Shown here: positions 2,015 through 58,489 of the stretch, piece by piece | How positions within the stretch are numbered: the stretch's first letter is position 1 | Layout: each line of letters begins with the position of its first letter | Assembly: GCA_950295325.1 (NCBI GenBank) | Contig: OX485805.1 | Span: 21,563,501-21,627,500, forward strand | Length of the DNA stretch: 64,000 nt | Source: Polytrichum commune | Lineage: Eukaryota > Streptophyta > Polytrichopsida > Polytrichales > Polytrichaceae | Reading direction: 5' to 3' | Made by a program: the position numbers and the translations under genes | The notes under the pieces: generated by a model | The model's database searches: none | Told to the model about the DNA's origin: nothing | Seen by the model: only the letters and a program-made list of their open reading frames with translations

Positions 2015-2300
2015 GTGTTACATGCTTTTTTGACGGTTTCACTTTGTGAATGAAATCCAAGCAATTGCTTATTTATTTGATGAAAGTGAACATATATATT
2101 GAATTTGGGACCTTGAAAGTGAAGTGCACTCAATATGAGATTTGTGGATAAGTGGCCTTCAAAAATGCAAAAACAATAGTATTTTCGAAGTCGGGCGGGC
2201 GGGCAGCAATTTTCGGTCGGGTCCAGAAAATCTGACATGCGGCAGAAATATGACAGGCGGCTGACAGAATATTCCTCCCCCAAAGAGTTCGTGGGGGGAC
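2015..2300 (+). repeat. Left arm of an inverted repeat bracketing the HAD-terpene cyclase gene
   Basis: This segment reappears as its reverse complement at about 6560-6835, beyond the gene. Matching landmarks include GTGCACTCAATATGAG, TTTGTGGATAAGTGGCC and the inner end TTCGTGGGGGGA. It lies only about 150 bp upstream of the start codon, so it must contribute to the promoter or leader. Part of it also matches the right arm of the fold-back element ending at 7667. Confidence 0.8.
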
Positions 2301-2455: not shown

Positions 2456-5053
2456 ATGGAAGTGCCTGAGCCCTGCGGAATGCCCCATGCAACGATGAGT
2501 ACTGCAAATTTAGTTGATAGCCTTGCGAGTGCTGCTACTGCTGGCATTCCATTTCTTACCTGCAGCAATGGCCAATTCAAGAATGTGTGCTTCGACATTG
2601 GCGGGGTGCTGCTTGTGCCGAACCTGGACATGGTAGGCTCGACATTGTCACCCTCTCTGTTTAAACGAATGCTTCGAAGCTATGCGTGGCTCCAGTACCA
2701 CGAGGGCAGGCTCTCGTGGACTGAAGCCCGGCGCCGGCTGGCCCTCGAGATGAACCAATTACGAGATCACCATTGCAACGAAGCCTCAGTGCAAGCGATT
2801 CTTGACGGTGCCCGAGCTTCCCTGCAGCCGGTGACGGAATTCGTGCGGCTTGTCAACGCGTTACACGCCACGGGCAAGCTGAAGCTGTTCTGCATGACGA
2901 ACGCCGCGAAGGAGGATCACGATGACATCCTCGCACGGTTTCCGGACGTGTTTCGAAAGTTCGACCGGATCTTCTACTCGGCCGCCGTGGGACTTCGGAA
3001 ACCCAGCTTCGGGTTCTTCGAGCACGCCTTGCGCGAGATGGCGTGCGAGGCGTCGGAAACGGTGTTTGTGGACGACACGATCCAGAATGTGGTGGCCGCC
3101 GAGTCATTAGGGTTCACCGGTGTTCTCGTGCGCTCTCATGATGAAGAAGGCGTGAAAGAGGCCGTGAATCTCGTTGTGTATCATCTTCGAAGCGATGAGG
3201 AGAAGTGGGCGGCAGCCGCGGGATACTTGTCGAGTCTGCGAGGTTTAGGACCTGTGGTGGAGAAATGCCCCTCGCTTACTTCGGACGGCCTTCGAGTGCC
3301 GGTCCATTTCGACCACTTTGTGGTCGCGGAGCTTTTGGGGGACCCGGGCTTCCTTCCCATGCACCAAGCGCCTGTGTCCGGGACGCTCAACTTTTTCCCT
3401 CCCATGGAACGACTGAACCAGAGAGACCCAAATACCAATGCTGTGACGCATAAAAGCTTCCCCGACGACCTCGACACCACCTCCACCGCATTGTCTGTTT
3501 TGCACAAATTCTCCAAAGTGGACATGGACATAATCCATGTTGTCTTGGACAAAATGGTAGACGCACAGAACGGTGACGGTATTTTCCAGGTCAGACGCAT
3601 TATTAACTCTTTGATGCAATTTCATGGATTCCCTGTTCACGATTCATGCCGAGGTACCTCCAATTTGAGTTTATGAGGACATGATGGATTGTATAGTCTT
3701 TGCAGATCTGATCATTAATTAATTATGTCAGGATCGGTTGGCTACGCACATGCACAGCGTTGTATTTCACTGTTGTCCCATGATCCAGTGCAACTATCGT
3801 CCCAAGCAATGCAAGCAAATAAATGGGAGAGAGTCAGTCATGAGACGTCAGAGCATTTCCTTTTGAGAAGAAGTGTGGTAAACTGTGATCGGCCTACGTC
3901 CAAGTCAAAAATTTAAGGTCCACGTTAACATGCTATCAGCTACCCACTTCCTATTATGGAATGAAATACCATGGTGATATTGGTTGCAACTCAATGGATC
4001 TTTGTGGCAGGTGGATGACTGATCTTGTCTACAAGGATAACAGTCTAGCTTGCCTCATACCTATGCACGTCATGAGCCAATTCTAATCAGAGATTTTGGG
4101 TAACATCGGTCAGCATCCAAGTGTTTCCAAGTCCAATCGTTTGCATGTTGATATCTTTTGGTTTTCCTTTATTAATTTAGAGTATGCTCTATAGATTCCT
4201 CTATAATGATTGTCAATTTGAATCCAGTCTTGAACCTGAACCAATCATTTCTCAAACTCAACCGGATCATCGGTAACTAGCGGTCGGATCTCTCCTCGTT
4301 CGTAGCTCCCAGTAATCAACAACACACATATTTAACAGAACTAATCTAAATGTCAATTTAATATCACAGCAGTCTTGGAGACCCGTAATATCAAGCACCT
4401 GTTAGCAATCTGAATCTGCCCCGTCCGTAATTATCAGTACGTATCATGCTCGAGTGACCAAAATTACAATGCTGTTTTTGTTGAACCAACATCATACGTA
4501 TAATTTAATTCTGCTTCTTATGATCTGCCAGACTTACTTTGACTCAACGCGGCCAAGGGTAGATGCGGTCTGTGTAGCCAATATCTGCTACCTGTTCCGC
4601 TTAGCCGGCCGAGTGGTAGATGTGAAGAAAAGCGAAGAGTTTCTCTACAATGTGTTGAACAGCGAGGCCTATTTACGGGGCAGTCTGTACTATCCGCTGC
4701 CGGAAACGTTTCTGTGTCAGCTAGCTCGCCTCACGCACAAATTCAAGGAGCACTTTGAGAGCATGGGCATGGCCAAGTTGTTGGCGGAGAAAGTGGGCAA
4801 GCGCGTGGGACTGCCAGGGACTGCTTTGGCTCTCGCAATGAGACTGCTTGCTTGCGACATGTGTGGGGTGAAGAACGTCATCGACCGACAGCAATTGGCA
4901 CGGCTGCAAAATGTGGATGGATCGTGGGACGTTTGCCCCTTTTACAGCTACAATGACCCTACAAGTTGGTGGGGGAACGAGATGACAACGACGGCGTATG
5001 CTGCTGCTGTGCTCCAAGAATGCCATTTGGAAACTGGAAGCTTGGTCAACTGA
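2456..5053 (+). CDS. HAD-like phosphatase/class II terpene cyclase fusion (HAD-TC; drimenol/albicanol synthase type)
   Basis: Two exons, 2456-3589 and 4532-5053, join in phase 0 (CAG|GTCAGA donor, TGCCAG acceptor; 942 bp intron) to give 551 residues, a normal length for the family. Residues about 42-255 form a HAD domain: motif I FDIGGVLL (D47), motif II MTNA (T148), motif III GLRKP (K182), motif IV VFVDD (D206, D207). The rest is a class II cyclase beta domain with FPDDLDTTSTAL, where D338-L-D340-T-T is the DxDTT motif of HAD-type drimane cyclases. Exon 2 continues with TYFDSTRPRVDAVCVAN, a family-typical block, and ends with a QW-like QNVDGSW and a GNEMTTTAYAA segment. In characterised fungal and bacterial relatives the cyclase domain protonates and cyclises farnesyl diphosphate and the HAD domain removes phosphate, giving drimenol or albicanol. 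No targeting peptide is obvious, so it is probably cytosolic. The ATG at 2456 is the first in frame; another lies 13 codons on. Product specificity cannot be read from sequence. Confidence 0.88.
4095..4285 (+). repeat. Dispersed repeat inside the HAD-TC intron
   Basis: A block including AGTGTTTCCAAGTCCAA, TCTTGAAC and CAAACTCAACC recurs in the same orientation at about 14290-14480. Either a repeat inserted into this intron or an intron segment was copied elsewhere. Confidence 0.65.
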
Positions 5054-6559: not shown

Positions 6560-6835
6560 GTTCCCCCCACGAACTTTTCAGGGGAGGAATATTCGGGCAG
6601 GGACAACCGCCCGTCAGATTTTCTGGACCTGACTGAAAACTGTTGCCCACCTGCCTGACTTCAACTATTGTCCTTGCATTCTTGAAAGCCACTTATCCAC
6701 AAATCCCATATTGAGTGCACTTCATTTTTAGGGTCCCAAATCCAATATATATGTTCACTTCCATTGAGTAAATAAGCAATTGATTGTATTTCATTTTCAA
6801 AGTGAAACCGCCAATAAAACATGTAATTCACTTGG
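6560..6835 (-). repeat. Right arm of the inverted repeat bracketing HAD-TC
   Basis: Reverse complement of 2015-2300. Its inner end TTCCCCCCACGAAC mirrors GTTCGTGGGGGGA near 2300. Its outer part overlaps the left arm of the fold-back element that starts at 6654. Confidence 0.8.
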
Positions 6836-7667
6836 AAGTCTAAAATATTACAAAATCCTCATTAGCACTGAGGTTATAATTTTTGTGACTTACCAATTAA
6901 AAGGATTTTGTCATTCTAAAATGGAACTAAAATTAATGATTTAATTTTATATGTTGAAAATTATAGTTTAATTAATACCTTCTACTATCACAAAGTATTC
7001 ATATGCATTTAAATTATTTAAGTGTGATTGAATGTAACTAAGTCTAATTGATTCTGATTAATCCTAACCAATCCTAATTAAATCAAAAAAATGCTTACCA
7101 AATTATTTAATCATAATTAATTATAAATTAGATTTATTGGAGTTAATTCCATTAAATCATGATTAATTCCAATAAGTAAATTTTATTATTAATTAGGCTT
7201 AATTATTTTGGTTAACATGATTTCTGATTTAATTGGGCTTAATTAGAATTAATCAAGATTAAACAGAATTTGTTAGAATTATTTGCATTCAATCACACTT
7301 AACTAGTTTAAATGCATATGAAAACTTTGTGATAGTAGAAGGTATTACCTATAAAATATTAAAATATTAAAATAAATCATTAATTTTAGTTCCATTTTAG
7401 AATGGTAAAGACCCTTTCAATTGTAAGTCACAAAAATTATAACCTCAGTGCTAATGAGGATTTCGTGATATTTTTAACTTCCAAGTTAATTACATGTTTT
7501 ATTGGCAGTTTCATTTTGTAAATAAAATCCAATTAATTTTTTATTTATTCAATGGAAATGAACATACATATTGGATTTGGGGCCTTGAAAATGATGTGCA
7601 CTCAATATGAGTTTTGTGGATAAGTGGCCTTTAAGAGTGCAAAGACAATAGTTTTTTCGAAGTCAGG
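6654..7667. mobile_element. 1.0 kb fold-back (long inverted repeat) element
   Basis: The two halves are inverted copies around a centre near 7160. The ends read CCTGACTTCAACTATTGTC at 6654 and its degenerate complement at 7667. Internal pairs include ATAACCTCAGTGCTAATGAG (right) against CTCATTAGCACTGAGGTTAT (left) and the ACTATCACAAAG/CTTTGTGATAGT pair. Arms are about 500 bp with almost no loop and no coding capacity, as in fold-back or long-TIR MITEs. A transcript would form a long hairpin. Confidence 0.85.
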
Positions 7668-11800: not shown

Positions 11801-14283
11801 ATATTCATAGATTTCCAATGGTATAAGAAAAGCCTAGACCCAAGTAGCAAAGAATGTGCTATGAATTTTTGAAGTTAGAAGTTAGATAGGTGGGTTGGAA
11901 GGGTCGGTTGAATCGACCTCACACTTCCAACCCTCATAACTTTTGCATTTCTTATCCGATTCAAGTGATTTTTAGATCATTGGGAAGATAATTAGGTGTA
12001 ATAAGTATAAATATTATTCTTAGGATTAAATTACAGTGCAGAATAAATACTTTATATTTTAATTGTTAACTAAGGTACGCTTACTACCAAACTAGTTACA
12101 AAGAAGGAGGCAAGGTCGACGCTAGGGAAGTGGAGCAAGGAAGGAAGTAGCGGCTCGGCCTACATCGAGCCCAAATCAACCGAGGAAAATTGAGGTAAAT
12201 TTACTAACGCTAGCCTTCCATTTAGGGTTGGAGGGAGCGCGGCTAAGGTACGCATCTATAAACCCACTCACCTATCTCGTAAGGTCAAGTGGCTTGACCA
12301 CTTGACCGCCAAGGGAATATCCAACTCCATTGTTTTCGGGGCCCTTGGTATGTTTTGTGGTAGTAGCTTCATTTATTAGCAAGTTTCGTGTGTGGTAAGT
12401 CGGATTAATCACCGACACGACCACTCTTAATGTTATTGGTGGAAATGTGGGGTTAATGACCCGCGAATCCACTATTATGTTGTTGGCCCCATAGATTGGG
12501 AGTAATGGCCCCAATTTATGAAGATTGCGCAACAGGTTGAACTTACAGGTCGCCCGTCACCCTGGTCCCATTGAGTTGCATTTCGTGGTCTATCCAGTGT
12601 AAACACATTTAACAATCAAAACATACAAAATAAATCGTAAACCCTTGTTGGCAAGAGATCCGAATCGGAAACTTAACTCGGTAGAGTGACACCACCCTTC
12701 GAACCATTGATGTCCGAAGGGTTTGAGATGTTACTCGACCTTCAAAGGACCTGCACGAGGCCTTAGAAGGTTCCGAGGTAAGGGGTGCACCAACCAGGTA
12801 AGGGGTGATGCCTAATATGTTAATGTAGTGAGTTAGGATGTGCAAACAAAAGTAAGTAATTAAAAAGGAATTTGTGTGAAGGGTAGGACTTAGGCCAAAT
12901 TCCTCCGCTTAGAAAACTAAATAGAACTAAATAAATAAATAAGAAGAATTGAATGGTCCATCAAATTGTCGTTATTCCGTTCGTTGAGTTAGGGTGGTAT
13001 GAGTCACACCCGGTTGGGTGTGTCAGAACCATCCCAATTCATAAATTAGGATTGTCTTGGTTTCAAGGCTGGTGCGTCTGCGCGTAGAATAGGTTGTAGG
13101 TTAAGGTTAGAACTAGATATGAATTTGGTTAGTAGAGTTTAGAGCCACACTAGTAAAAAACTAAGGCCCAACCTCCGGAGGTACTACAACGCATATTTAA
13201 TCTCCCTTAAGAATCTAACTACTCACGTTATACACCTATCATCCGGGTTCGGCTTGGGCACCTGCAAGTGCAGGCTACCTTCACCGAAGGGCTTGTGTGA
13301 TACTTTTAGGCTCCCTCGAAAGGGGGTGGCCCAAAAGTACCACATAATTGGTATATGTCCATTCATGTTAGGGTTTGCATTTGGGATCTAGGTTTTTATA
13401 AACCAGAGTTTTAGTCTTTGGATTGTAGCTAAGGTGTTGTACTCATGTATTTGTTTGTTTGATGCAATTTTTGAGAGATTGCAATATCTTGTTTGCACAT
13501 TGGACAGAAGGTGACATGTTCAAAACCCTAAGCATAGATTGGACTTCTTTCAAACCTTCTTGTAGGGCACTTGTGACATCATCATCAGTGGCAATTAATG
13601 TGTAATCTCATAGATTGCAAGCAAGTTCACCCTTAACAAGAGGATGGAGGCTAGCCCATACATTCTTCATTTCCTTTCGTGGCCAACCTTCTCCTTATTG
13701 AGACAAAAGAGAGGAGAAGGTGGTTACAAACAATAACCAACTTGAATTAGCAATATCATAGATGTCTAGCAGCTTGGGCACCTTTTGCCTCATACTTAAT
13801 TAAAGTGCGAAAGTAAGTTGATCAGTCAGGTTGGGTATGCATGTGTCAACTAGCTTCTCTCGTCTTCTCAAATCCGGGCCCACCTACCAACCTCCTCCTC
13901 CAAATTGAAACCTCCAAATTCTAGTAGGCCACCGGAATATGGTGGGATGGCGGCTTCTACTTATCTACATCAGAACACCTCCGACCCACTATTATCTAGA
14001 ATGTAGTGGACAAATGGCCTACATGGAAACTCACCCTAACTCGGAGATTCAGAGGAGGATCCCATCCTCTGCTGCAAAGTGGAATTCACAATCTATGCAA
14101 ACACCTAGTCTGTCAGCAAATTCACAGTTTCTAGCACTGGACAATATTATTTAGCCACTGCAATAACTCCAGATTCAAGACTCCGTACTCAAGAGAAAAC
14201 TCTCCAGAGAATGGTGATGAATCAAAGCTGCTTGCCTGCCTACATGAATCAAACGGACTCAGTGTCCAGGGAGCTTTTTGGGC
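11801..14283. other. Gene-poor stretch with unclassified repeat-like DNA
   Basis: No gene was recognised. The blocks 12240-12850 and 13000-13400 have the look of LTR or retroelement leader sequence, but no terminal repeat pair or protein motif confirms this. Confidence 0.4.
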
Positions 14284-14490
14284 ATATCCGGTCGAGATCC
14301 CAGTGTTTCCAAGTCCAACTAGCTACATCTTCACATCTTTCGGATTTTCTTCATTAATTTGAGGCATATTCTATAATTTCCTCTGAATTGATGGGTAGTT
14401 TTCCTGAAGTCTTGAACTTCAACTAGTTTTTTTTCAAACTCAACCTGTTCATCTGTAACTAGCATCTGGTTCTCCATTCTCTGTAACTGA
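14284..14490 (+). repeat. Second copy of the HAD-TC intron repeat
   Basis: It matches about 4095-4285 in the same orientation, with AGTGTTTCCAAGTCCAA, GAAGTCTTGAAC and CATCTGTAACTAGC as landmarks. No cyclase exon is found next to it. Confidence 0.65.
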
Positions 14491-19566: not shown

Positions 19567-22290
19567 TCAAAACTTAAAGGAGTTTATAAAAAAAAAGCCT
19601 TCCTTGCTAAAATTCGGAAGCACATGAATGGCTTTAAGAATATTTTGAACATCAAGAATCATGTAAGATTCACACTTTCCTACGTTACTCTTGTTCCTTG
19701 CTTTACTAATTTGAAACTTAGTTTTAGGCCATATGAGTTGGGAACATTCAACTAGCCTACTAAGTTGAGTGGTAGGAACTTCTTCATACATTCTAGGAAA
19801 TGCTAAATCTTTAACAACTCGATTTTGGACTTCATCTTCAAAAGACACTTTGAAAATCAATCGAAGTTGACCATAATAGGTCAATTCAGACTCACCAGGT
19901 GCCTCGATCTGAATGGCAACACTGCTGAACCATGGTGAACCAAAAAATTTGCTTGTTGCTCATACATATTATGGCATGCTACCAAAGCAGTCACCAGGAC
20001 CGGCAGGGATGGCGATAGAAGTGAAAACATGAAGCACCTGTTCATGTCAAGAAATTAATCATCACCCAAACATGGATCATCCTAATAAAAGAAAAATTTT
20101 AATTAGCAAAAATTGCAAACTAAATACTTCAATTATAGCAAAGCTACATATAATAACATTGAACCGGTGTAAAGCATACCTCTCCACCTGTGAAATTGTT
20201 TTCAACTTTGAAGGTATTAAAAGTTTCATAGAAATTGGTTTGTAGCTGTGGTTGCCCATGAATGAGATTTTGAGCACTCCTGGATACAAAAAGTTGCGTG
20301 GACTCAAATGAAAATCCAAAAGCTGGATCCAACCATGAACTCTGCAAGTTGACTTTTGCTCCCCATAAAACATTCAAACCTGATTCCACAGCCTTCAAAC
20401 CCACAATACATTAAATAAATACCAGTCAAATTTGGAAACCGCTCTAGCTTTTATAATAACAAATGCCACACTTTAGCCAACTTCATACTCAAGACCAATA
20501 ATGACTTTCTGAACAATGATAGAATAAACCATATGATTGAAAACTTACTTGGTCTAGTGAAGTATATTTCTCTTTCTCTCTAGAGTTATCAAGCCCCTCC
20601 ATAGTGTCTTGCATCTTCCATAAGGCAACAAGTCTTTGATTATGTCGGGCAATTTGAGGAGTAGCTTGCCTCTTATTGCTACTTTTGTATCCAGCCTTCA
20701 TCAAAGTTGTATGCATTTGTTCATACATATTGGTATTATACTCCCATGGAAGTCCAGATCAGCAGATACAATCATTAAAATGTGACATGGCATGAATTTT
20801 CACTGTGTTAAATCCTGATTTTTGCCATTTCAACATGGCTCTCTTCATAGCTTGTACAGACCTGATTAGCCAAAGACATTTGAAGATTATCAATTTGTTA
20901 CTAAAAAATTAAAACACCTAGAACTTAATTCCATTAAACCTCAATTCCGTAAAATGGCCTTCCATGTGCCATTTGGAAGAGCATATGTGCAATTTTGGCA
21001 TCCGTTGAGAAACATTGTACCTTGAAAAACCTCCCAAAACCTTATAATTTTATTGACTTTTTGTACCCCAAAACATGCCATTTTGGCATTATAAAGCCGT
21101 TTCAACGGAATTGAGTATATTTCTTACAATCAAATTGTTTCATTTCTAAAAAACCTGAATTGCTAACAATATGACATGACCATAGCAAAAAAAACCAAAA
21201 CATACCTTATCATAAGCTCATCCATTTTGGCCAATGAATCTTGTGTGTGTTTTGGACTACGAGTAGCAACCTTGTACCATTGTAGAAACAATACAAAGGC
21301 TCTAATAACATCATCTTTGTAGATCCCGACAAGGCACAAAACAATCACCTGAAAATGATACAACAATAACAAAAACTTCAATACCAAAATGATATTCACT
21401 AACAAAATTTTTAGAAAGATGTTCAAAGTCCATGAAGGTAGTAAAAAACAAAAGCAAACCTGCATAATTGCTCGATGCTCAAACCCTGCAAAGTTTGCAT
21501 TTGATCCAAAGTATGCCCCCTTATCAGTTCCTAGAATCCTGGAAAAATAATAAATAAAAGTATCAATTAACAAACAACCAAACAATTATCATGTTTTTGA
21601 ATTGAAAACAATTTATTCAGAATCATACATTTTCTACAAAAAAAAAATGCAAATATGACATATTAATAAATTCAAGATAAAACAAACTTTAAATTAGGAA
21701 AATTCTAAGTAAATTAATGATATTTCACCCAAATAATTCTAGGGATATGAAATAAACACCTAAAATGAGCATAACGGGCCTCCTTTTTTATGACAAGTAG
21801 GCGTCGATCAAGCTCTTTGATTGCCCTTGAGTGCATAATATCACCATCACTTGCCATAGATCTCAAAATTCCTATAAGCATCTTGAATATACCAACATCT
21901 GTTTGATGGAGAACATCAACTTGAATGGCCAAGTAAGGATTGCCAAACTCAGTGTTTCCACCATTGAATCCCCAAAGAGCACACTACAATAAAACAAAGG
22001 AACTTATTTAGACCAAAATAGTCAAAGTACCATATTGGAAGTACCAAATCCATTGGAGAAAACATTGAATTATTTGAACACTTACAGGGATTGGATGCAA
22101 TGACCATTGCTTGGAGAGGGCAGCCACATCTTTCTTATCTCTTGTTTCCATCATGGCTTCGTACACCTCTTGCATATTTTTCTCTATGCGTACTGAATTT
22201 TTTTGATGAACATCTCGTAAAGAATCCTTTCCACACAAGCAGATGCTACAAGGAAATTTCCCCTGCTAATTTGAGAAGTTATTGACCTTT
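19567..22290 (-). pseudogene. Plavaka/CACTA-like transposase, broken
   Basis: Reading leftwards from about 22290, spliced segments give GNPYLAIQVDVLHQTDVGIF (about 21930), GAYFGSNANFAGFEHRAIMQ (about 21480), YKDDVIRAFVLFLQWYK, then KIHAMSHFNDC and NTNMYEQMHTTLMKAGYKSS with NKRQATPQ (about 20680). The order and spacing are those of fungal Plavaka transposases (DxLHxxDxG, AEWRxFMQ-like, KxHxxxHY, NTExxExLH, SNKR). The last part (19567-19884) fits the family's C-terminal region. Introns with normal splice sites separate the segments. An in-frame TGA after NDCIC (about 20763) and further stops near 19965-19985 break it. The N-terminal DDE part is not recognised, so the copy is also truncated. It would have been a cut-and-paste DNA transposase. 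Confidence 0.7.
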
Positions 22291-29443: not shown

Positions 29444-32400
29444 CTAGTGCCTGGTTTGCAAGACTGATGTGAGCCAAGAATCCTTTAGTTCCTCAGGCCA
29501 GTTGTAGGTCTGTAACAGAGACAGTCAAAATGTCAGCCCTAAACTTTAGGAAATGCCCAGAAACTGCAAGGCAAAGGTCGTCACATAGAACATTTGAAAA
29601 GGTTGCACCTTGACAAGTTCAAAATCACAAAAAAGTTCAGTCACCTGAATTGATCCTTGAAAGAAACATCTAGACTGCACACAAATCAATGGCTGGAGTT
29701 ACCTTCAGGTGCTTTGCCAATTTCAAAACAGAGTGATTGGTGGCTGTTCCTGATGATGAGAGAACAAGGCGCTCAAACCTTCCTTCAGCTGAGGGCACTA
29801 TGCGTGCTCGAATAGGACGATGCCCTGGTCGACCTGGTTGCTTGTATACAAAATGAAAGATTTTGCCTGGTGGATATAAACGCCGAGTATCCTTTGAGAC
29901 TCTACTTTGAAATGCTTGCCTTAACCAATAGATAAACACCACTGCACCAGTTCTGCCCATAGAATACACCCCAAGACAATTTATTAACCACTTTATACAG
30001 CAAGCAAAAAGCTCTTGCGTAATAGTTCCAGTCTTCACAGTATTTGAGGGCTGGATTTAGGCTGTAACAACCTTGTTGTTGAAAAACGAAATGCCCATCA
30101 AAGTACTGTCGCTGATTATAGCACATAGGGCTATGAAGAATAATAAAAGTTGAATTTCTCAATTACACCAAAATATTACGCTTTGACCAATCTCTATGAA
30201 GATTTGCAGTCATGCATCTGCTTGGTTGGAGGAAGCTTTATAATTCAAGGGAGAACAGATGTTTTCCACGTTGCTGGGTTGCAACACTAATTTCCTACAG
30301 AAGACAATCACATTTCAATTGACCAACAACTGAAAGGGACCACATAGGAGGCAGGCACAAAGTGAATTGAATTTCTGACGTTTTCCAATATAGATGAAAG
30401 TGGACTACATGTCGTTTTTAGAAGCTTATCTTTAATGAACTACCAATTGCATTGTATAGAACATTTTTGATAATTTTGCGAGTCACTTCACTGAAGTCCA
30501 GAACTGCATTCAAAGTGGCCCTGATTTGCATTCTTTCATGGACAAGAATGTGCTTACATTGCAAACGTGAGTAAGAACACTCGTTTCACAGATTTTGTTG
30601 AAACTCTTGGTAGAAAATCATCCTGTAACACTCACATAGGCAACAAATTAAGGCCGGGCACCTCAGAACATGTACTGAAGATGATGAAGCCCATTGGTGA
30701 GAATTTAGACTACTGCATGACAAGTAGAATCATCATTTCTGCTACTGGAACATTCACAATGTATTTTTTGCAGTAGGGAAGAATGTGCCCAGAAACGCAC
30801 ACTAACAGGCACCACCTATGCATCCCGTTCACCCTCAAATGTAACAACTCCTGTCCTTCCTACTCCCAAGGTTTTCACATGTGTCTTAAACAACAAACAG
30901 ACACATTGCAACAAGTTCAGCCACCATACCGCTGCAAGTATACGCAAGCAATTTTCAAACCAGAGAAGTGGGATCATTTACACAATCCCTAAGTCGATGT
31001 TCATTGTGAAACTTGCCTGGTATACCACGCTGTTGATATATGGAGCATATTTGATGGCTAAATCAAGTGACATGACTCGAGGTGGGGCAAACACAAATGC
31101 ACAAATTCGATCTGGGCTGATGTTCCCCAACACCTCCAAGTTGTTCAGTAAGAAAACTGTCAACAAGGCTGCTACACCAGCTCCAAGAGAGTGTCCTACT
31201 ATCCTTAGTCGATATCTGCATAACATAGTTGGTCACTTCAATAATGCATACGTATTCTGCCTATTGCATCTACAAAGAATGAACCTTAACCACCATCCAC
31301 AAACCCGTGAAGAGTTGTACACTTTCCATGCTAGTAGAATTTAAGTTGCTTACAAGGCAGAAAGGTGTACACGTAGGTCAGGCATACCCATTGTTGGAAC
31401 GAAGTTGCTCATTTAGAACAGGTCCTATATGCTTAACAGCCCATTGAGCAGGCCCAAACATGCCATGGTGTACATAGCCCCCATCAAACGCCTGCAAACA
31501 AATTGCAATGAAGATAATGAACCAGAGATATTTAATGTGCTCATCCCAATACAAAGTTCAATGGCAAAGCTACCCAACCTAATCCTCATCGTTCACAAAT
31601 GCTTCAAAACAGGATCACGTATCATCAGATAAGGTGATGAATGCCAACCTCCTCACCCTTGCGATTGTTCATGAGGGCAATATAGTCTCGCCGATGTAGG
31701 AGGTTGAGACCTCGGATATAGACAGCTACTTCCTTATACTCGTGGTCCACATATACAAAATAGGGTGGGCATTCTCCAGCACCAGTTGGCTGCTGCAAAG
31801 CAACAACTCCCTTGCAATCAAAGTGAGGTTCGTGCTTACGTATAGGTTTTACCAATTCGTCCATACTATTTCCATATGCTCCAAGTATCTGCAAGAAATT
31901 ATACAAATTGGTAAATAGATCTTATGTGAATTAGAGAACTGTTCACAACCGCAAGGACTATTTTTACAAGTATCATCTGCCACCTGAACTTTACACTCAT
32001 GTTATGAGACAAGGAACCCCATTGAGGCAGAAGAGGCAATGTTTGTAATGAAGGCCAACCCCCCCCCCCCCCCCACCCCCCAAAGAGCACTGGAACCTGT
32101 GTTTACAATATGGGCTTATGTGATGTTAGGGGTACACCATCCTCACCTATGTAATCCACAAGTATATTTGAGAAGGGAGGAGGAGGATGTGCAGTCAATA
32201 GCGCTTGTCCTCGTTTATGGAAACTTGGGGCACTTGAACCTAGAAAACCCCATACAGCACTTAGGTATCTCTAGGGCTTGGATACAGTACACAGAACTTA
32301 GATATCTACGCAGAAACCAAATTTTGTTGTAATAGTAAGATAGGTCTGAAGAGGATCGGTCAAAGCTTTACTTATTCTCAAGAATTGAAGCCAGCGTTCA

Positions 32401-41690: not shown

Positions 41691-41948
41691 TGAAAAGTGG
41701 TACTCGAGGAAGCCACCACACAATGACCTTGCTCTATGCGCAATTTGTTGGGAGTTCCTTGACATTGTTTTATTGATACGTCATTGTTAGAACATTCATT
41801 TTAAAGATGGTTGAAATTGTTCTGAAACTTCCCAACAGTGAATGATATTTCCAGCGAAGTTGGTTGGCAAGAACCATGGAGCTTAATATATGCAAGTTTG
41901 CGAAACCTGAATGATATTCTAGTGAAGTGAGTTCAAAGATGAATATTA

Positions 41949-42448
41949 GGGCCACTTCACACACGAGACTGAGAGCCCATGACCATGACACTTCAAGCAC
42001 TCTCATTGGTGGAAAAGGCAGAGCCGGTCCAAGTTCGCTTCACATTACGCTTAAGGGACCAACAGAGTATGTGAATGCAAGATGGATGTAAAGTCTACAT
42101 GGATTCCTACATGGCATCAAATGGATCATGTTTCATGGTCACTTGGACTATTTTCAAAAACCACCTCTTGGAAGTAGGCCTAACACAAAACTAGGAGACC
42201 ATGGCACTCCGAACACTCACAACCGTTGGTTTATTCTATTTTATCATGTGTGAAGACCTGCATGAATAAAAATTCATAGAAATAGCATTTAGTTAAGGCC
42301 CTGGTCACATATGACTTCACACTACACTTGAGGGCCCGTGACTACACTACATGATTTTGGAGGTGTCTTGGGACGGCCGTTGGACACCGTATTTTTGGGC
42401 TCTCACAATTTCATGGTCACGGCTCTTGGCTCGTGTGTGAAGTGGTCC
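41949..42448 (+). mobile_element. PIF/Harbinger-like MITE, copy 2 (500 bp)
   Basis: Terminal inverted repeats GGGCCACTTCACACACGAG / CTCGTGTGTGAAGTGGTCC, flanked by a perfect TTA duplication. No coding capacity. Confidence 0.85.
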
Positions 42449-45400: not shown

Positions 45401-45520
45401 GCCAAGAACTTAGGGACGAGAGATCCTTTGATAACTTAGATTTCTTGTTCTAAAACGAAGTCCCCCTATATGGGTACTAATAGGTTCGGTGTTGGCATCG
45501 GGTCAAGCTGCATGACTTAA
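42449..45520. other. Gene-poor stretch
   Basis: No gene recognised. C-rich runs occur at about 44327-44337 and 44387-44397. Frames at 43759-44007 (plus) and 44895-45107 (minus) are open but resemble nothing I know; they could be retroelement remains. Confidence 0.5.
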
Positions 45521-46397
45521 GGCCGGTTCACATAGGGTCTTAAGTCCCAAGTCCCAATATGGAGGCAAAGTCCCAACTATTGAGTCTCGAGAACCCAAAG
45601 TATGGTTCTATCATATTATGTCAAATCTTGATTATTTTATGCAAACCATTTGTCAGGACTTGTGTTGTGAATTGGGTCTAGCTTTTTGTTCAATCCAACT
45701 CTCAACACCAATCCCAAGCCCAACCTCCACAAAGTGATGCCATGTAGGCATCCATGTCATACTTAAGACATAGGACTTGGGACCTCGTGCAAAGTGGTTA
45801 GTCCCAACTTCCGTCCTCTCAACACCCGAGATTGCATGGATTGACTTCAAGTGAATTGGTACTAAGGGCCACTTCACACACGAGCCAAGAGCCATGACCA
45901 TGGAATTGTGAGTGCCCAAAAGAAAGTGTCCAAAGGCCATCCCAACACACCTCCAAAATCATGTAGTAGTGTGGTCACGGACCCTCAAGTGTAGTGTGAA
46001 GTCATATGTGACCATGCCCTCAACCAAATACTATTTCAAATGAATTTTTGTTCATGTGGGTCCTCACACATGATAAAATAGAATAAATCAACAGTTGTGA
46101 GCATTCAAAATGCCATGACCTCTTGGTTTTGTGTTAGGCCTACCTCCAAGATGTGGTTTTTGAAAATAATCCAAGCGACCATGAAACATGATCCATTGGA
46201 TGCCATGTAAGAATCCATGTAGACTTTACATCCATCTTGCATCCACATACTCCGTTGGTCCCTCAAGCGTAGTGTGAAGTGAACTTGGACGAGCTTGGCC
46301 TTTTCCACCAATGAGAGTGCTTGAAGTGTAATGGTCACGGTCTCTTAGTCTCATGTGTGAAGTGACCCTAAGGACTTGGGACCCATGTGAACCGACC
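45521..46397 (+). mobile_element. Second MITE family, interrupted copy
   Basis: The left end GGCCGGTTCACATAGGG and the right end GGGACCCATGTGAACCGACC are inverted. The element is split by a Harbinger-like MITE at 45866-46368; after removal it would be about 370 bp. TAA precedes it, but no matching duplication follows. Confidence 0.7.
45866..46368 (-). mobile_element. PIF/Harbinger-like MITE, copy 3 (503 bp), nested
   Basis: It starts GGGCCACTTCACACACGAG and ends TGTGTGAAGTGACCC, with TAA on both sides. Its interior is inverted relative to copy 2. It sits inside the second-family MITE. Confidence 0.85.
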
Positions 46398-46658
46398 CCC
46401 CATTTTACTCCCTTGTCAAGTGTAAAGGCTTGGGCCATGTTTTCAAACCATCCCCATCACCATTTACAATTTGATTCTTATTCCAACAAAACATAAAAAC
46501 AAGCAAAAGTTAGTTGTTTTGGTTGACATACAATGGTTGAACATAAGAGATGACACTACTAGGTGTTTGTTGTGAAGAAAACTATGAAATGTGGTCGCAT
46601 GAAATCATTGAAAATAAGTGTGCATCTCCTTCATCTAGTAGTGCAAAGCCTAGTATAA

Positions 46659-47157
46659 GGGCCACTTCACACACGAGCCAAGAGCCGTGACCATGTAATT
46701 GTAAGAGCCCGTAACAAAGTGTCCCAAGGCCGTCCCAACACACCTTCAAAATCATCTAGTGTGGTCACGAACCCTCGAGTGTAGTGTGAAGTCATATGTG
46801 ACCGGACCCTCAATCAAATGCTATTTCAATGAATTTCTATTCATGCGGGTCCTTGCACATGATAAAATAGAATATATCAATGGTTGTGAGTGTACGGAGT
46901 GCCATGGTCTCCCGGTTTTGTGTTAGGCCTACCTCCAAGAGGTGGTTTTTGAAAACGGTCCAAGTAACCATGAAACACTTTCCATTTGATGCCATGTAGG
47001 AATCCATGTAGACTTTACATTCATCTTGCATTCACATACTCTTTTGGTCCCTCAAGCGTAGTGTGAAGTGAACTTGGACCGACCTCGCCTTTTCCACCAA
47101 TGAGAGTGCTTGAAGTGTAATGGTCACGGGCTCTCAGACTCGTGTGTGAAGTGGCCC
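46659..47157 (-). mobile_element. PIF/Harbinger-like MITE, copy 4 (499 bp)
   Basis: Ends GGGCCACTTCACACACGAG / CTCGTGTGTGAAGTGGCCC form an almost perfect inverted repeat, with TAA on both sides. Same orientation as copy 3. Confidence 0.88.
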
Positions 47158-49898: not shown

Positions 49899-52800
49899 AT
49901 GGCAATGGCGGGATCATTGGAGGCGCGCGAGGGTTCGGGTTACAGCGGCGGGGGTTTGAGTGATGCGGAGGAGGCGGCTGTGTTGCGAATGAAGGAATCT
50001 GTGAGTTGTCAGGGTGTAGAAAGAGGCGGCCATATGGAGGAAGGAGGGGGCCAGGGTTCGGACGAAGGTTTTAGCGATGTTTGGAGGGAGAACGATCGCC
50101 CTGGTAGAGAGCTTAATGGCGCCGGTGGTGTTGCAGAAGACGAAGAAGAGAGCGTATTAGTGCGAGAAAATGGCATGGCATTGGAGAGCGAGGATGTGGA
50201 GGAGGAGGAGGAGTCACCTGCTGTTATTAATTTTAGAGAGGATCAGCACGAAGCATCAGGGAGTCCTGCTGTTGTAACGAGCGACGAAACTCCTCACGAA
50301 AATGTAGCTTATGTAGAGGAGAAGAGGAACGGGGAAAACGCTGATGATGAGAAGTCTTCCTCTCCTTTGAGAGAGACGCCTGATGTTATTGTGAGCAGTC
50401 AGGGAAAGGAAAATGGCAAGGGAGGGTTTATAGCATCGTTCCTGCGGAGAGGTCGAAAAGGTGGTCTTGGCGGTGACGAAGGGAAGCGAGATGGGTTCTC
50501 GAGAGGTTTTTCGAAAGTGCGGTATACCTATCAAAGCTCCGGTGTCCGGAAGACTATGGTGATGACACCCGAGGGTATGGCTACCGAGGAGGAGGAACAA
50601 ATGAGGCCGGATATTACAACAAGCAGGCCTAGTGTAGACGAGGAGGAGATAACTCCAGCAGCGGAGTGCAACGCTAACTATAGCCCCCCCGCACACTCAT
50701 TGCATGAAGATGATGACAGGGGTGTGTTCAAGGATGCGATTGGAGACGAACGTGGAGCAGAAAGCTCTGAGGACAATGGGGGTGTATTTTATGATGCCAA
50801 GGAAAATGGTAGTGAGGGTGCAGTATCGAACGGCAGTTTTAGTGCCAGTGACAGGCATGGGGGAATGGAAGACTCTAATAATGAGGGCAGCAGTAGAATG
50901 ATGATGGAAACAGCAGATGTGGATGTTAATGTGTTGAGTGGAAGGCAAGTGGAGACGAAGCATTCCGTGTCATCAAGAAAGAAAAAGTCTTTTGTAGAGA
51001 AAGGGAGGGCGCCGCCTGATGGGTTTTGTAGCGGAAGAGATTTGATGATGAATGCGGATTCGCTCATTGGAGCAGAGAGAGCTCACGACTCCAAGCGGGA
51101 TGGATATATCACCTCTCGACTATTCGCGAAGCCGCTAGCTGGCAGGGTATTTTCTTCTATTCTACTTTTAGACCCTTTTTCCGCTAATCTTTAGTTCGTG
51201 AAGCATCGTGATGAAAGCGCCACAGGTTGTTGGATCCAGCAGTCAGTCACAAGCGAGGATCTTCCACGTCCCTTCCGGATCAGCTACCAGAAAACTAAGT
51301 CCGCAGCCTTCTCATCTTACTCTCTCGAATTGAAGACAATTTAATGTTCCAGTTTCCAATCTTGGACAAACGCCTTTGCAGTAGTTTAAGGGTGGGATTA
51401 CATTAGCGTCCGGGGTTCAAGAAAACTTGGGGTCACCCTCTTAATGAACCTTACTTTGGGATTAATGAGTGGACTCATGATTGGACCCAAGCTTGAAGAT
51501 TGGTTTCTCAAACTTGGAGGAGTATTTTTCTTAAGTGCGAACCGCCGAAAGTTGGCTGGAAGTGATGCCCCGTTAGCGCCACTTCAAATTTTCATACCTT
51601 GGGCCTGGACCCTGTTCAAGTCCAAGACCCCAATGAGAACTTCTTGGGTCTAAATTTTTGCTTTCGACAAATAAGATCGCTCGATTTTGGAGTGTCTGCT
51701 CTTGGACCCTAGAGTAAACCCAGTTTAAGTTTTATGGCCGCCGTATCCACGTCTTCATCGAGATGAGCGAACGTTTAGGAAAGCATGCAGGAAAAGTGAG
51801 CCTGAGAGTTTATTATTAACAACCCAGTGAAGGGCGATTTGCGCAGTGCACAGATGTCCAGTGCAACCTGTGATTTTTGACGAATCAATGAACAAAAGTG
51901 AGTGCAAGTTATAAGATTCCGCCAGCTATGATAGCAGGGTTTACGGAGTGTTCTGTGCATTAGAAAGATAGTGGGCCTTGCATTTAATGTGTTCAAAGTT
52001 CCTCAATTCAGTCTTCAGGTGTTGGCTGATGTTGTGCAACTTCAAACATACTCGAACTGCTCAAACAAATCGATAACTGACGAATGGTTTTGTGACCACT
52101 TTCATCTGGCCCAACCTCGGAACTCCTTGACGTCATGTCCTTGCCATTGGAGTTGGGCGTTGTTTTCCTTAACCTGCGAGAGAACGTATGGAAAAATTCT
52201 CGAAACTACAGTGTGGCAATACTCTTATGTGCTGTAGTTGGGTATATCTTTGACCTACATTTTATGTATTCCAAGGTCAATTCGGACGATTTGCAAAACT
52301 TCACTTTGAATTCTCATCCAGTATTTTTGATATCAGGATGACTTTTTGAGCAATTTCAGCACACCGTCACCAAATGTGGGGGCTCAAGCCGATAACAAAC
52401 TAGGTTCAATGGGCAGCTTTGAAATCACATTTGACGATGTTGGAGATGCGCAAGGCTGGAACAATGTGTATCCACGTGGAGAGAAACCTGAACCCCGTTA
52501 CTTTGTGAGGTCCCTCTCAACTTGCATTGTGTTCCACCGCCCAGTATTCTGGCAATACTGACTACTGTTGAGGACTCTTTTGCATGATCATCTGTGTGAG
52601 TCTTAAATGATTTTAGGTGATATTCACTGACAGTATTGAAATCCATGCTGTAGTGCTTCTCACTCTTTTGCACATTCTTAGCTATTAATCAAATATGCTA
52701 GAGCATTATACACACACGTGGGTTGTACATTCTATGAAGCCAGTGTGGTGGAAAGTGTCACCCTTCGGTGACAGGAAATGATTTGGGATTCTTGCAGCAT

Positions 52801-55800
52801 GCAGCAGCTGTGGTGGGACGGAAGATGGTCGTGGCAGGTGGTCAAACTGCATCTGGACCTAGCAATGATCTGAAGGTATCTCCATTTGCTTCTCAGGAAG
52901 TTGTGTTGCATTGTGATCGGGTTGGTGGACCTCCTATCTCTTCAAATGTATTTATTTTGAAACCAGAGTATATGCTATGGATATGCAGATGCTGCATCTT
53001 GGTCGAATGACATGGTCAGAATTGGGGAGAGGAGAAGCTCCAGTCAAGGGACAAGTTGGAAGTGGGAAATCTGGGCCTCTGGAAATTCCTTCATGCAGGG
53101 GTCATAGCCTGGTAAGCAGAAGTCCTGCTTTTCTTACTGTGATTTTGTGGTGGATTCCACTTTATGTTCACGGCCAATATCCTATTCCAGGTTCTATATT
53201 GGCCACAATCAGTTCTATATTGGCTATTTATTGTTCTGGGCTGATGATTAGCTTTGAACTACTAGCTGATAAAAGTCAGTGGGGGAATGATGGAAGCTGG
53301 TCATTTTCAAACATGATGTATGTGATGGTCTGATGCTATTGATCGACTTTTCACAATGTTAAACAATGTTCCAGTTGCACCTTGTGTTTGTTGGATATAT
53401 TCCCACCAAGTCTTTTAGGACCTACTCTGTATCTGTTGTCTATGTGCTGCTTGAAGTATTTCTGTTCATTTCTGACATGCAATCTGTTTGAGTGCTGTCG
53501 TGCAGATTTCTTGGGGAAAAACTGTTCTTTTAGTTGGTGGAGATTTAAATCCCTCATCTGATAGAATTGAAGGTAAATCATCTGATTATATAATGGTTAA
53601 AATATGGTAATGTCTGTGTACACATCTCTTGAATTAATGGACTTTTTTGATTTTGGAATTTGAAGAAGAATTATTTACACTCCTTCAGTGCTCACATACA
53701 TGGATGAACCAATAGCTATTGCAGTATTTGATGGACTTATCCTCTCACCATGTGCGATGCACTTTCAAAATTCCTGAGAGGAAGCCACCTAAAGCTCAAC
53801 TATTTTGGTCTAGCAGTCAGAATAAGAGAAATCTTGTCCATCAGATTCTTTGGTAACATGTTTGTGGTTTTTTACACAATGGCAGTGTGGTCTTTTGATT
53901 TGGAGACTGGGTGTTGGACAAAAATCACAGCGAAAGGAGAAGTTCCGGTACAAGCTCTCTTTCAAGCAATAATTACGACTCTGTCTCTTCCTCACTCTTT
54001 GCATAAAGAACCACATAGCACGAACAGGACTTGAACACTGACTCTCATTGAGGACCAACCTTTCTTAGTGATTCACCAGAAATCACATGTCATTGTTTTG
54101 AAATCATGTCCACAATATTAGCTTAGATGGGTATCTGGTTCAGGTTTGCCTTTTGAAGTATGTGTTGGTTGGATGAAGACTTTCTGCATGGGTGAATTGC
54201 TTCTGTAAATGATTACTGTGTTCCCTATTTAGGACTTGTTGATAAGTTTCATTTGCCTGCTTCTCTTGGTGCCCGTTTTGACCAATTTATAGGCTATAAG
54301 AATCCGGTATTGCATAGCTGTTATGTGAGTAATTGTATTCTGTTGCAGTCAGCAAGAAGTGGTCAAAGTGTGACAAGAGCAGGGAGCATACTTATCATGT
54401 TTGGAGGTGAAAATGCAAAGGGTCACAAACTGAACGACCTTCACATCCTTGACCTAAAGTCTCTGATGTGGCTGCCCTTGCACACTGCGTAAGTTTGACA
54501 ACCTTCTTTCTTGCCGTCCTTAAGCTCTCTGGCTTCCTTGCCAAACCGGATTTTAAAGACAAAGTTGAAACCATGGTTATGTTTGCAGTAATATGAGGAT
54601 GTGTGTTCACCTGAAGCAGATTATGTATGCATCTGGTTGCAACATCTGTAGTTTGTAATGGTGTTATTAGGTTCCACTGTAAACTTTTTGATTTAATTAG
54701 TACCATTTATAAAATAAATAAAATTTTTGCCCCTTCCTTCACTGTGTGTGCGACACTATAAATGATTTTCTCTTATTTGGGTTGCTAATTATGTGAGTGA
54801 TTATGGTGCAGAGGTCCTGGTCCTTCACCACGAGCTAGACACTGTGCGGCAATGTACGATGATCGCTTTTTATTGATATTTGGGGGAGCATCGAAGTCTA
54901 AGTCTCTCAGTGATGTATTTGCCCTTGATTTTGAAACGGTGAGTTGTTTCTAAGAAAGATTGTCCTCTCTCCGCGATGAGCTCATCTATTGGTCCTAAAT
55001 TCCAGGTCCATTTTAAAAATACAATATGCATCTTTTGTGGTCTCCTGGAGATTCATCTTCTGTCTATTCTAAACAATTCAATATCTCTCTCTAAGGAGAA
55101 AGGCATGTTAAACCTTCTGAGGTCATGAGGGCACAGTTTGTCTGCAATATATTTTGGAGAACAGAGACATCTTATTGCGTAGGCAAACCGTGATAAACTT
55201 CTGACATATGTATGTGGATGTACACAGATGGAGTGGTCTAAGATGAAAACAAAGGGCACTACCCCTTCCCCCAGGTCAGGGCATGCTGGTGTCTTGGTGG
55301 GTGACAAGTGGTATATTGCTGGTGGAGAAAATCGTGGTGTTGGTGAGCTCATGACTACCCTTGCTAAGGATAGATTTGCTGGATTTACTTAGGCAAGCTT
55401 GATTACACTGCATAATGATGTCTGTCATCATATATTTTACCCCCATGCCAACTCGTGATGTATCTGATGCAGGAGTGGCGGATACACTGATGTTTGATGT
55501 TGGGAAATTAACCTGGTCTGTGGTTGCTACAACCACCCCTAATACAGCTGTTGCCAATCAGGTCCAACACGACCATTGAATGTCTTTGTAGATAGTTCAT
55601 GTGTCCACTCTTTGTGGTTGATATTGCTTATCCTTGATTAGAGTTTAAGTGATGAAGAAAATTAAAAGGCAGTGACTTTTTCTAAAGTGTGGACATAGTT
55701 TTACTATGTCCTCAATTGACAATGTCTATAGGTGGAAATTTACTTTCACTTTTCCTGTACTTTGTATACTGGGTTTGACTTGTGGAGGCTTCAAAAAATT

Positions 55801-58489
55801 CTTTCTTGTTCAGACTGTAAATTGAATGGATTGTATCTTTTCAGGGACTAAGCTTGGTACTTGTTCAACGGAAGGAGAAAACGATGCTGGTTGCGTTTGG
55901 GGGGAAGGGATCTGAACTCTGTAATCAGGTATTTGCATCATTCTCAAAGCAAATAGTATCATTGAAGTGGTTATGAAACTGATAGATCCATTTTCCTATA
56001 AACTGCTGATGTACAGCTATATTGTCTTTGGTAGAGGCACTTAAAAATGCATCAATATTCTAAATGATTGGACAACCAGCACATGATTCATGGAATGAAG
56101 TGTGCATGTGTGATGTGTGGACATGCAGGTGCAAGTCTTGTATATAATGCCGCTGGATCATGTCAAGCCTATGAGTCCTTTGGGAGGCAGCAATGTGGAC
56201 TTGAGTGAGGCACTACCAAATGCTGCTGCAGCCTTTCCAACCCTCTCTGGGGCAGGGCTACCTTGTGCTTGTGTAGATGTTGCCAAAACCCATTTGTATC
56301 CTGCTGCTGGGCAACATTATGGAGGACATTCTTCACCTGGTAACTCACCATCTACAGAGCAGTATATGGATGCTTCACCTGGCCTTGTCCCATTACGGAA
56401 GCGGTATGCAGTTGTTCAAGATGGAAGCAGGAACTATAGTGTACGTCAGCAACCTGAAGAAATTCTATCAAGAGTTCTTAGGGAGACTTCATCACATGAA
56501 AGTACACCCTCACATCATTTTAAGGTTTGTAATTTCCTGCTTCAATTTTGTAATTTTGTCTCCAATGTGACATTTCCATAGCTTCTGTGTTTGTCCTTGC
56601 TTTTAAAATTAGTATTACTAGGAGAGTAGATTTTTTTCTAGTTCCAGCCATATCATGTCATCACTCCTGAACATCTCATTGTCTAGGATTCCATATGCTG
56701 GAATACTATCGTAGTGTAAGAGGACTAAGTTTCCTTGGATCCTCATCCAAGTTATTTGAAGCTTATATGCATGAAATGGTTTGTGTGCAGCCATATGTTT
56801 GCTTCAATTGTCGTATTAGGATTCTATAAATTAGGCACAAGAAAATCTGTATATGCTGTAGGAGTTTGTGTTGGATACATTGTGCTGTTACTTCACCAAT
56901 ATTTCTGAATTATTCTGCTTGGAGCAGGCCTCTGATTCGTTACATCAAGACCTGGAGATCAGGTTTAGTGACATGGAAGCAGGCTCAAGATTGGCCCCCA
57001 TTGCCACCCATAGCTCGAAGACAATGAGAAGGCCTGGAGGATCATCTAGGAGAAAAGAGTCCTTTGACTCTAATCTTTCATCTGTATTGGAAAGTGCAGA
57101 ATATGTGGAAACCTCAAGAAGGGGAACAGGTGATGCTGATGCCAATACTCGGCTTTGGAGACCCCAAACCAATGACAGGTCTGAGGGCTATTACACAAGT
57201 TCAGGGAGGACAACTTGGGAAAGGGAAGAGTCCACTGATAGTCAGCTCCTTGCAGACCTGCAGGATGCTACAACCATGGAAAGGCGAATACATCTGATCA
57301 ATAAATTTAGACAGAGTTTTGAAATGAAACTTGCAGCTTCTGTACGGAAGAATGAAGTAACTGAAGGTCGTCTAGCAACTGCTCTCAAAGGTAAAGAGGA
57401 AGCTGAGAAGAGTCTTGCAGCAGCTTTGAAAAGCAGACAAAAGGCTGAAGGAAAGCTTGCAGCTGCAGTGAAGTTGCAAATGGAGCTCAAAGAAAGGGTT
57501 GTAGGTGCAGAGCAGGCACAAGAGGATTCCAACAACCTGTGCAATGTGGTTCACTCTGAGAATCTCCGGTTGGAACACGATCTTGCCTTTCTTAAGGCCG
57601 TCCTTGAAGATACTCAAAAGGTATAGATGTATACATCTTATGACTCCTCCTTGGTAAGAAAGGCCTTCATCTTGTTAGCAGAATCAAATGCATGACTGCT
57701 TTGCCCAGTGCATTTCTGAAGAATACTTTCAGATTAATCTGTCACCTGTTTGTTCCTATCCTGTGACCTAGTGCTGTATTATATGACGCTGGGTACACTG
57801 TAGTGGTCTTCTGCAGTTATAATCTTCCTGGTGCAAACATTTGAGTAGAGAAAGTATTGAGATATGTCACATCTTCTTTAGTTACATGTACAAATTTATC
57901 TTTCTAATTTGTTATCATTATTTTGGTGTAGATCTTATCTGTTGGTCCACATTGGGTTGAAAGTATCTTGACTCTGGCCATTAATTTCTAGCTCCAAGAT
58001 TAATTGAAAGAAATTCACGTTATAATGGTCTCCAGGTAATGATGTGCACTTGTGTATATTTCCATGTTCATGTTGCATGTAGATTGTTGAGTACTGAAGT
58101 TCTATATTACAGGAGTTGCACTCGACCCGCAGCGTGCTTGCTACAGAACGGTCAAGGTCATTCCAGTTACAGGTAAGTATGGTCACATACTCCATGACTA
58201 ATATGTAAAGAATGTTACAAATCACTTGTTTTAGCAATCTCTCTGATCAACTGTAAGTTTTGTGGTGTATTTCTAGTGGTATTGGTTCTAGCATCAAAAC
58301 AAAAGGGAACTTGCCGCATACTTCACAGTTACAAGTTGTTTGTTTAATTCTTGATTCTTCTGATGGATTCAGATGGAGGTTTTTGATCTGAAGAAAAAAC
58401 TCCCACCAACAACTACGGCAATAGAGAAACTTCCCTCTACACATTCTGCCGAGCTGTCATCAGCTACAGTTCTTACAAACGTAGACTAA
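49899..58489 (+). CDS. Kelch-repeat protein with acidic N-terminus and C-terminal coiled coil (AT5G18590/AT5G04420 type)
   Basis: Fifteen exons join in phase: 49899-51146, 52337-52504, 52798-52875, 52989-53111, 53506-53572, 53886-53947, 54349-54488, 54812-54938, 55228-55342, 55473-55561, 55845-55928, 56129-56524, 56928-57620, 58113-58172, 58373-58489. The product is about 1188 residues. Residues 1-416 are low-complexity and acidic. Residues about 450-785 form a kelch propeller with the double glycines MVVAGGQT, LLVGGD, IMFGGEN, LIFGGAS, YIAGGEN and VAFGGKG. About residues 995-1130 (exon 13) are a coiled coil with repeated Ala/Lys/Glu segments (AAALKSRQKAEGKLAAAVK). The propeller closely resembles Arabidopsis AT5G18590, a relative of the kelch acyl-CoA-binding proteins ACBP4/5; no acyl-CoA-binding domain is seen. 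Kelch propellers bind protein partners; the role here is unknown. The first exon joins by the donor AGG|GTATTT and a 1190 bp intron; its link to the rest rests on matching phase and position, not homology, so a shorter protein starting elsewhere is possible. Confidence 0.85.

Follow-up and report, generated by a model that had tools for sequence, protein, structure and literature searches.

In the available text of three papers on the family, enzymes that combine a HAD phosphatase domain with a terpene cyclase beta domain (HAD-TC-beta) are spoken of from bacteria and fungi only (PMC13244436, PMC12365925, PMC9128629). The drimenol synthase of Aquimarina spongiae (AsDMS) has been mapped by mutagenesis: its HAD positions D43, G45, N139, K171, D195, and D196 each give an inactive enzyme as alanine, complete loss was reported for the cyclase positions D331, D333, Y319, Y373, Y426, and Y427, and R378 loses 96% of its activity as alanine (PMC12365925). 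The variant Y319F retained product formation, and the exchanges R425A and R513A increased activity (PMC12365925). Four product positions have been published for AsDMS and the fungal albicanol synthase AncC, which are occupied by Y319/F, F509/Y, A511/F, and F518/A, respectively (PMC12365925). AstC, a fungal HAD-TC from Aspergillus oryzae, possesses a glutamate at the nucleophile position, and its phosphatase activity is absent (PMC13244436). As to plants, the initial annotation had stated that drimanes usually come from enzymes with a DxDD motif; the characterised plant synthases of drimenol, VoTPS3 and PhDS, depart from this pattern and belong to the canonical class I TPS type (PMC13244436). 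The microbial-type terpene genes of bryophytes (MTPSL), which are thought to have been transferred, encode a single class I alpha domain with a DDxxD-like motif. Among the open-access papers listed as matches, no title or abstract mentions a plant HAD-TC.

The gene described here lies in a window of 64,000 nucleotides (the whole stretch of DNA that was analysed) from the moss Polytrichum commune. A protein of 551 residues is predicted from two exons on the plus strand, 2456..3589 and 4532..5053, which are joined in frame and terminated by the stop codon 5051-5053. Exon 1 (residues 1-378) encodes the HAD-like phosphatase domain and the beginning of the cyclase beta domain; exon 2 (residues 379-551) contributes the remainder of the latter, including Y380, R385, Y431, Y432, Y516, Y518, and W525. 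The predicted phase-0 intron (3590..4531, plus strand) is 942 nt long and has GT...AG ends. Its GC content is 0.40, compared with 0.56 in exon 1 and 0.53 in exon 2; by codon position, the exons are coding-like (.61/.40/.66 and.54/.41/.63), whereas the intron is flat (.42/.42/.37). The reading frame of exon 2 was open in 2 of 5000 shuffles. Across the exon junction, the moss protein (GIFQ, followed by TYFDSTRPRVDAV), AsDMS (GIIQVYFDDNRPRIDAI), and the homologue P0006 (GLLQTYFDPRRPRVEP) align without a gap, as do several fungal members, and the putative 3589/4532 junction is thus supported by homology. These findings are in line with the initial annotation, which had described a full-length gene of two exons with normal splice sites. 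The splice donor, GTCAGA, deviates from the plant optimum, which counts against the gene reading. A segment of the intron (4090..4281, plus strand) is 72.5% identical to positions 14271-14463 of the window. Translation might start at M1, M9, or M14; the relatives have been called from MPHSTMST, MMST, or MSP. Residues 1-40 contain neither arginine nor lysine; the usual plastid transit peptide differs from such a stretch, and the N-terminus would be compatible with a cytosolic enzyme acting on cytosolic farnesyl diphosphate.

The fusion of a HAD domain with a terpene cyclase beta domain, as postulated in the initial annotation, was recovered by several comparisons. Up to an E-value of 1, the Pfam scan of the moss protein gave solely three HAD families, among them PF00702 (E 1.4e-11, residues 42-219; positions 2579..3112, plus strand). 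Up to the same value, the Pfam copy used gave no match to the TPS models PF01397, PF03936, and PF19086, a match to which distinguishes a canonical plant TPS or MTPSL, and none to the squalene-hopene cyclase model. In a search of solved structures, AstC was the top match (E 1.6e-52, residues 41-543), AsDMS was hit with both domains (E 1.1e-48 and 6.4e-48; cyclase part at residues 332-539), and the cyclase-only AstC chain 22ty matched residues 273-543 (E 5.3e-32). By sequence and by tree the protein groups with the known HAD-TC members as a separate lineage, the tree having no outgroup. It combines the N-terminal HAD domain, the fused beta domain, a DxDTT motif with the activating tyrosine, and a complete set of HAD residues, which makes the gene, as judged from its predicted product, a moss member of the HAD-TC-beta drimane synthase kind. 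With VoTPS3 and PhDS it shares the presumed drimane product in a plant, and like MTPSL it is a microbial-type terpene gene in a bryophyte, but the encoded protein belongs to neither type.

All motifs named by the initial annotation were found in their places, and those of the HAD and cyclase active sites have counterparts in AsDMS, whose residue numbering was verified on row L003 (DLDTT at 331). On the plus strand, the HAD nucleophile D47 of motif I (F-D-I-G-G-V, 2594..2596) corresponds to D43 of AsDMS, T148 of motif II (M-T-N, 2897..2899) to S138, K182 of motif III (R-K-P, 2999..3001) to K171, and the metal ligands D206-D207 of motif IV (V-D-D, 3071..3076) to D195-D196. The class II cyclase acid motif D338-L-D340-T-T occupies positions 3467..3481, with D340 matching D333 of AsDMS, and the TRPRVDAV block sits close to the start of exon 2. 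Of the HAD positions essential in AsDMS, 6/6 are identical in the moss protein (D47, G49, N149, K182, D206, and D207 for D43, G45, N139, K171, D195, and D196). Gly49 replaces the second aspartate of motif I, like G45 of the active AsDMS; the same glycine, the same domain order, and DxDTT are also found in other marine bacterial drimenol synthases. AstC has the same domain order and cyclase motif. Its HAD site, however, is degenerate and inactive, the first two of these positions being E and K, whereas that of the moss protein is complete; as AstC lacks phosphatase activity and carries glutamate in place of the nucleophile, the moss protein should proceed to the alcohol, where AstC stops at the diphosphate.

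In the cyclase domain, five of the six essential AsDMS positions are identical (D331, D333, Y373, Y426, and Y427 correspond to D338, D340, Y380, Y431, and Y432). The sixth, Y319, is Phe314 in the moss protein and phenylalanine in all eight fungal rows as well. R378 is preserved as R385, while of the four arginines contacting the diphosphate in AsDMS, two are replaced (R425 by L430, R513 by D520). The phenylalanines F281, F318, F328, F509, and F518 of AsDMS correspond to F285, F313, F335, Y516, and W525 and are aromatic throughout. The DDxxE motif of the bacterial drimenol synthases reads DDTIQ in moss; since it is kept in 7/8 bacterial and 4/8 fungal rows, it is no defining mark of the whole family. 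At the four product positions the moss protein has F314, Y516, Y518, and W525, i.e. F-Y-Y-W compared with Y-F-A-F in AsDMS. Relative to AncC, which was compared by its published positions, F and Y are identical and the third residue is aromatic in both enzymes; at the fourth, AncC has an alanine and the moss protein a bulky aromatic residue, which is closer to AsDMS. Tryptophan at this position was found only in moss and P0006 among the 18 rows covering the region. Trp525 is thus unlike both AsDMS and AncC, and the product or the substrate could differ. Identity to AsDMS is 26% in the best tblastn segment and 31-32% in alignments with joined AsDMS stretches, and AsDMS, in contrast to the moss gene, is encoded without an intron.

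The initial annotation had proposed a comparison with fungal, bacterial, and plant proteins, and this comparison brought to light fungal and bacterial members, with no named plant protein among the matches listed. Two protein searches over 5.8 billion proteins, in each of which scoring covered the roughly 8000 candidates with the most words in common, yielded 14 homologues: P0001-P0005, P0006, and eight fungal proteins. All 14 carry PF28380, a model of a newer Pfam release that is absent from the output of the copy used here; a survey with PF28380 would detect the moss protein. No named plant or algal protein and, more specifically, no named bryophyte protein was among these homologues; the same database includes at least nine bryophyte species (Ceratodon, Physcomitrium, three Sphagnum, Marchantia, two Riccia, and Calypogeia). 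The proteins P0001-P0005 stem from contigs of 1.6-4.2 kb, which are presumably metagenomic, are 84-98% identical over 56-68% of the query, and end just past exon 1. In all five, a valine (GTN codon) follows directly after the end of exon 1, which implies a GT donor, and four run on into similar intron sequence. D338 and D340 are kept in all five, with DLDTT replaced by DLDVT in P0001 and by DLDNT in P0004; from these changes, copies may drift or decay. P0006 (514 aa, a jgi record on a 7.6-kb contig) is 50% identical over 92% of the query, is uninterrupted at the place of the intron, and carries E-I-D-S-T instead of D-L-D-T-T. It could come from a moss, another eukaryote, or a prokaryote, and might hold the clue to where the moss gene came from. 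The eight fungal homologues are 28-41% identical in the search that listed each. One of these, P0013 from Ganoderma sinense, has asparagine at the catalytic acid (DLNTT) and phenylalanine in place of the activating tyrosine and may thus lack cyclase activity. In bacterial and archaeal genomes, a scan identified eight loci among 105 pattern matches, seven in Flavobacteriaceae and one in Rhodobacteraceae KLH11; as a positive control, four of the eight (A. spongiae, AU474, A. aggregata, KLH11) belong to a published set of drimenol synthase candidates (PMC9128629). With A2 or P0006 as query, no relative was found among viral contigs, nor, with P0006 at 1e-10, among plasmids.

The tree with AstC-type and bacterial relatives that had likewise been suggested comprised 19 rows (eight bacterial and eight fungal proteins, the moss query, P0002, and P0006) and was unrooted, with no outgroup. 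It consists of three separate groups, the fungi (95/96), moss plus P0006 (100/100), and the bacteria (100/100), with a program warning that long branches meet in it. The fungal branch reappeared in the cyclase-only tree (97/95), in the HAD-only tree (82/88), and after removal of the partial row P0002 (93/96). We therefore favour, on the basis of these alignments, a reading in which moss and P0006 represent a lineage of their own, the third next to those of fungi and bacteria. When the moss pair was made to join one or another fungal subgroup (five placements), the AU test gave p-values of 0.012, 0.036, 0.069, 0.071, and 0.126. Measured by branch length, P0006 is closest to the moss sequence, and fungal rows follow at 3.06-3.18 changes per column. 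A grouping of moss with fungi nevertheless arises from midpoint rooting of an unrooted three-group tree and is no supported clade.

The plant setting of the window, which the initial annotation had assumed, was confirmed by a kelch/acyl-CoA-binding-like gene at approximately 52409..58200 (plus strand; exons picked by eye). Its best matches are from Ceratodon purpureus (71%), Physcomitrium (69% and 64%), Sphagnum (54%), and Marchantia (45%). In two trees, Ceratodon, both Physcomitrium copies, and an unnamed protein cluster together without this gene (100/100; 100/99), and the gene unites with that cluster before Sphagnum does (100/100 in each tree). AU tests rejected its grouping with Ceratodon (p 1e-6), with Ceratodon plus Physcomitrium a (6e-6), with the b copies (8e-5), and with Sphagnum (0.0016). 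Taken alone, the kelch gene would place the window between Sphagnum and Ceratodon plus Physcomitrium, a position about which hidden paralogy could mislead; in view of moss phylogeny, it would suit a Polytrichum-like moss. A liverwort source, first suspected because drimanes are made by liverworts, was dismissed on account of this gene. According to NCBI, Bryophytina comprises Bryopsida, Polytrichopsida, Oedipodiopsida, and Tetraphidopsida.

The HAD-TC gene sits between two inverted repeats. A foldback element of about 1 kb, almost fully palindromic and 82% self-complementary, occupies positions 6654-7667; an inverted copy of its arm, with about 100 nt of flank, is located on the other side of the gene at 2018..2299 (plus strand) and is 80% identical over 282 aligned positions to 6562..6826 (minus strand), most of which falls within the element. 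That these repeats delimit a gene-carrying transposon was considered but not adopted, as the outer end of the common element points toward the gene. Further repeats, direct and inverted, of about 300-440 nt lie in 41945-48148 (at 42.0, 46.0, 46.8, and 47.7 kb; 85-90% alike). By eye, positions 1-180 resemble the end of a Ty3/gypsy retrotransposon polyprotein, and adjacent reading frames at 21166-22265 (minus strand) resemble a decayed transposase; the latter gave no Pfam match. With the protein as tblastn query, no other convincing HAD-TC locus was found in the 64-kb window (best other E 0.40). Among the 20 of 139 reading frames of at least 75 residues that were scanned with Pfam for signs of a gene cluster, only a class 3 lipase fragment (30981-31232) exceeded the cut-off, and an Arfaptin match stayed below it; a cluster may still exist among the other frames.

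Is the gene a genuine and intact part of the moss genome? Its closeness to the window edge would fit a contaminant from a fungus or a bacterium, or a chimeric assembly at the margin of the moss contig, and so would its GC3 of 0.65, compared with 0.33-0.47 in six in-frame open segments taken as neighbouring exons (a seventh, out of frame, was excluded). Yet the gene is flanked by inverted copies of one repeat, and a segment of its intron recurs in the same window. A spliced intron of 942 nt would speak against bacterial DNA and would exceed the usual length in fungi. In addition, among the matches listed, the closest fungal protein reaches 41% in the cyclase part and the closest bacterial one 28%, and five relatives share the exon end, so we regard contamination as very improbable. 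The 942-nt stretch might instead be an unspliced insertion that breaks a decaying pseudogene, as the uninterrupted P0006 and the drift of DxDTT in P0001 and P0004 could suggest. An interruption with GT...AG ends that falls exactly between two codons and recurs as an identical exon end in five relatives speaks against this reading, as do the open frames and coding-like composition of both exons and the retention of Y380, R385, Y431, Y432, and the aromatic pocket positions in exon 2; a pseudogene is accordingly improbable. A working enzyme of the family might, on the other hand, use another substrate or form another product (a monophosphate, a longer prenyl diphosphate, or a rearranged skeleton, for example). 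The restriction of Trp525 to moss and P0006 and the two altered diphosphate-contacting arginines are compatible with this, and the fungal relative AacA has been described as a monophosphate synthase (PMC13244436). The moss protein retains, however, the residues essential to both half reactions of AsDMS, and we consider a deviating chemistry rather unlikely. The preferred reading is hence a moss nuclear gene that quite probably encodes a bifunctional HAD-TC-beta drimane-type sesquiterpene synthase converting farnesyl diphosphate to a drimane alcohol. Our confidence in this function is reduced by the arginines of AsDMS that are not kept in moss.

With regard to origin, we lean towards a gain by horizontal transfer in an ancestor of the moss group, perhaps from a fungus or from an unsampled relative of fungi. 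The fungal rows are the nearest by branch length after P0006, no named bryophyte protein is among the matches listed in spite of the species covered, and a fungal origin of another terpene synthase family in bryophytes has been published (PMC12890914, PMC12448838). Against a transfer stands that no nesting of the moss sequence in a donor group is seen: the fungi, represented by eight rows, form one side of a branch, and the AU values for the nested placements do not settle the matter. Because the link to the fungi depends on rooting and branch length alone, our confidence in a transfer is reduced, and that in vertical inheritance with losses is slightly raised. Patchiness among bryophytes suits a transfer as well as repeated loss, and vertical descent of an ancient eukaryotic gene, with loss in most plants, would agree with the deep position of the moss pair, a third lineage with about 30% identity to the fungi. 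Such a history would require many losses, and no named plant or algal protein was among the 14 homologues (some 8000 candidates scored per search), which makes it an unlikely one. A transfer of the moss gene is likely, and in this respect the initial annotation was plausible, although the pair stands beside rather than clearly inside the eight fungal rows of an unrooted tree.

By homology to AsDMS, the reaction would proceed as follows. Farnesyl diphosphate would enter the C-terminal beta domain, where Y380, R385, and Y431 would grip the diphosphate. D340, aided by Y432, would protonate the terminal double bond, and the chain would fold to a bicyclic drimanyl cation, which would lose a proton to give the cyclised diphosphate. 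This intermediate would then move to the HAD domain of its own chain or of the partner chain in a dimer. There, D47 and K182, with Mg2+ bound by D206/D207 and the carbonyl of G49, would remove the two phosphates successively, leaving a drimane alcohol of the drimenol or albicanol type. Splicing, substrate, product, and dimer are what we infer for the moss enzyme. As the pocket code F314, Y516, Y518, and W525 is new, we do not commit ourselves to an isomer. The non-canonical terpene route postulated in the initial annotation thus stands as a well-based deduction from conserved catalytic residues.

Drimanes have been named in liverworts and a fern (PMC13364417), and several moss orders, Polytrichales among them, have been reported to contain cinnamolide and its derivatives, which are drimane lactones, based on mass-spectrometry molecular networking with a standard (PMC11745878). 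The putative alcohol could supply such lactones; the available text of the latter report names no enzyme, and the moss HAD-TC gene is a candidate source. A search of the P. commune transcriptome with PF01397, PF03936, and PF19086 yielded one gene (PMC13098426). The moss protein matches none of these models, and TPS surveys of this kind are therefore blind to it. What we describe is a known kind of enzyme in an unexpected kingdom, probably a working drimane alcohol synthase. Tentatively, and with somewhat less than even confidence in the combination as a whole, we propose that it is the first plant HAD-TC and a third deep lineage of the family, a functional drimane synthase with its own pocket code (Tyr518/Trp525), which would be the unrecognised source of drimanes, possibly of a new isomer, in an early-branching, presumably Polytrichum-like moss group and would be invisible to surveys relying on the alpha domain or on TPS models. 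The complete, intron-bearing moss copy adds a kingdom to the HAD-TC family.
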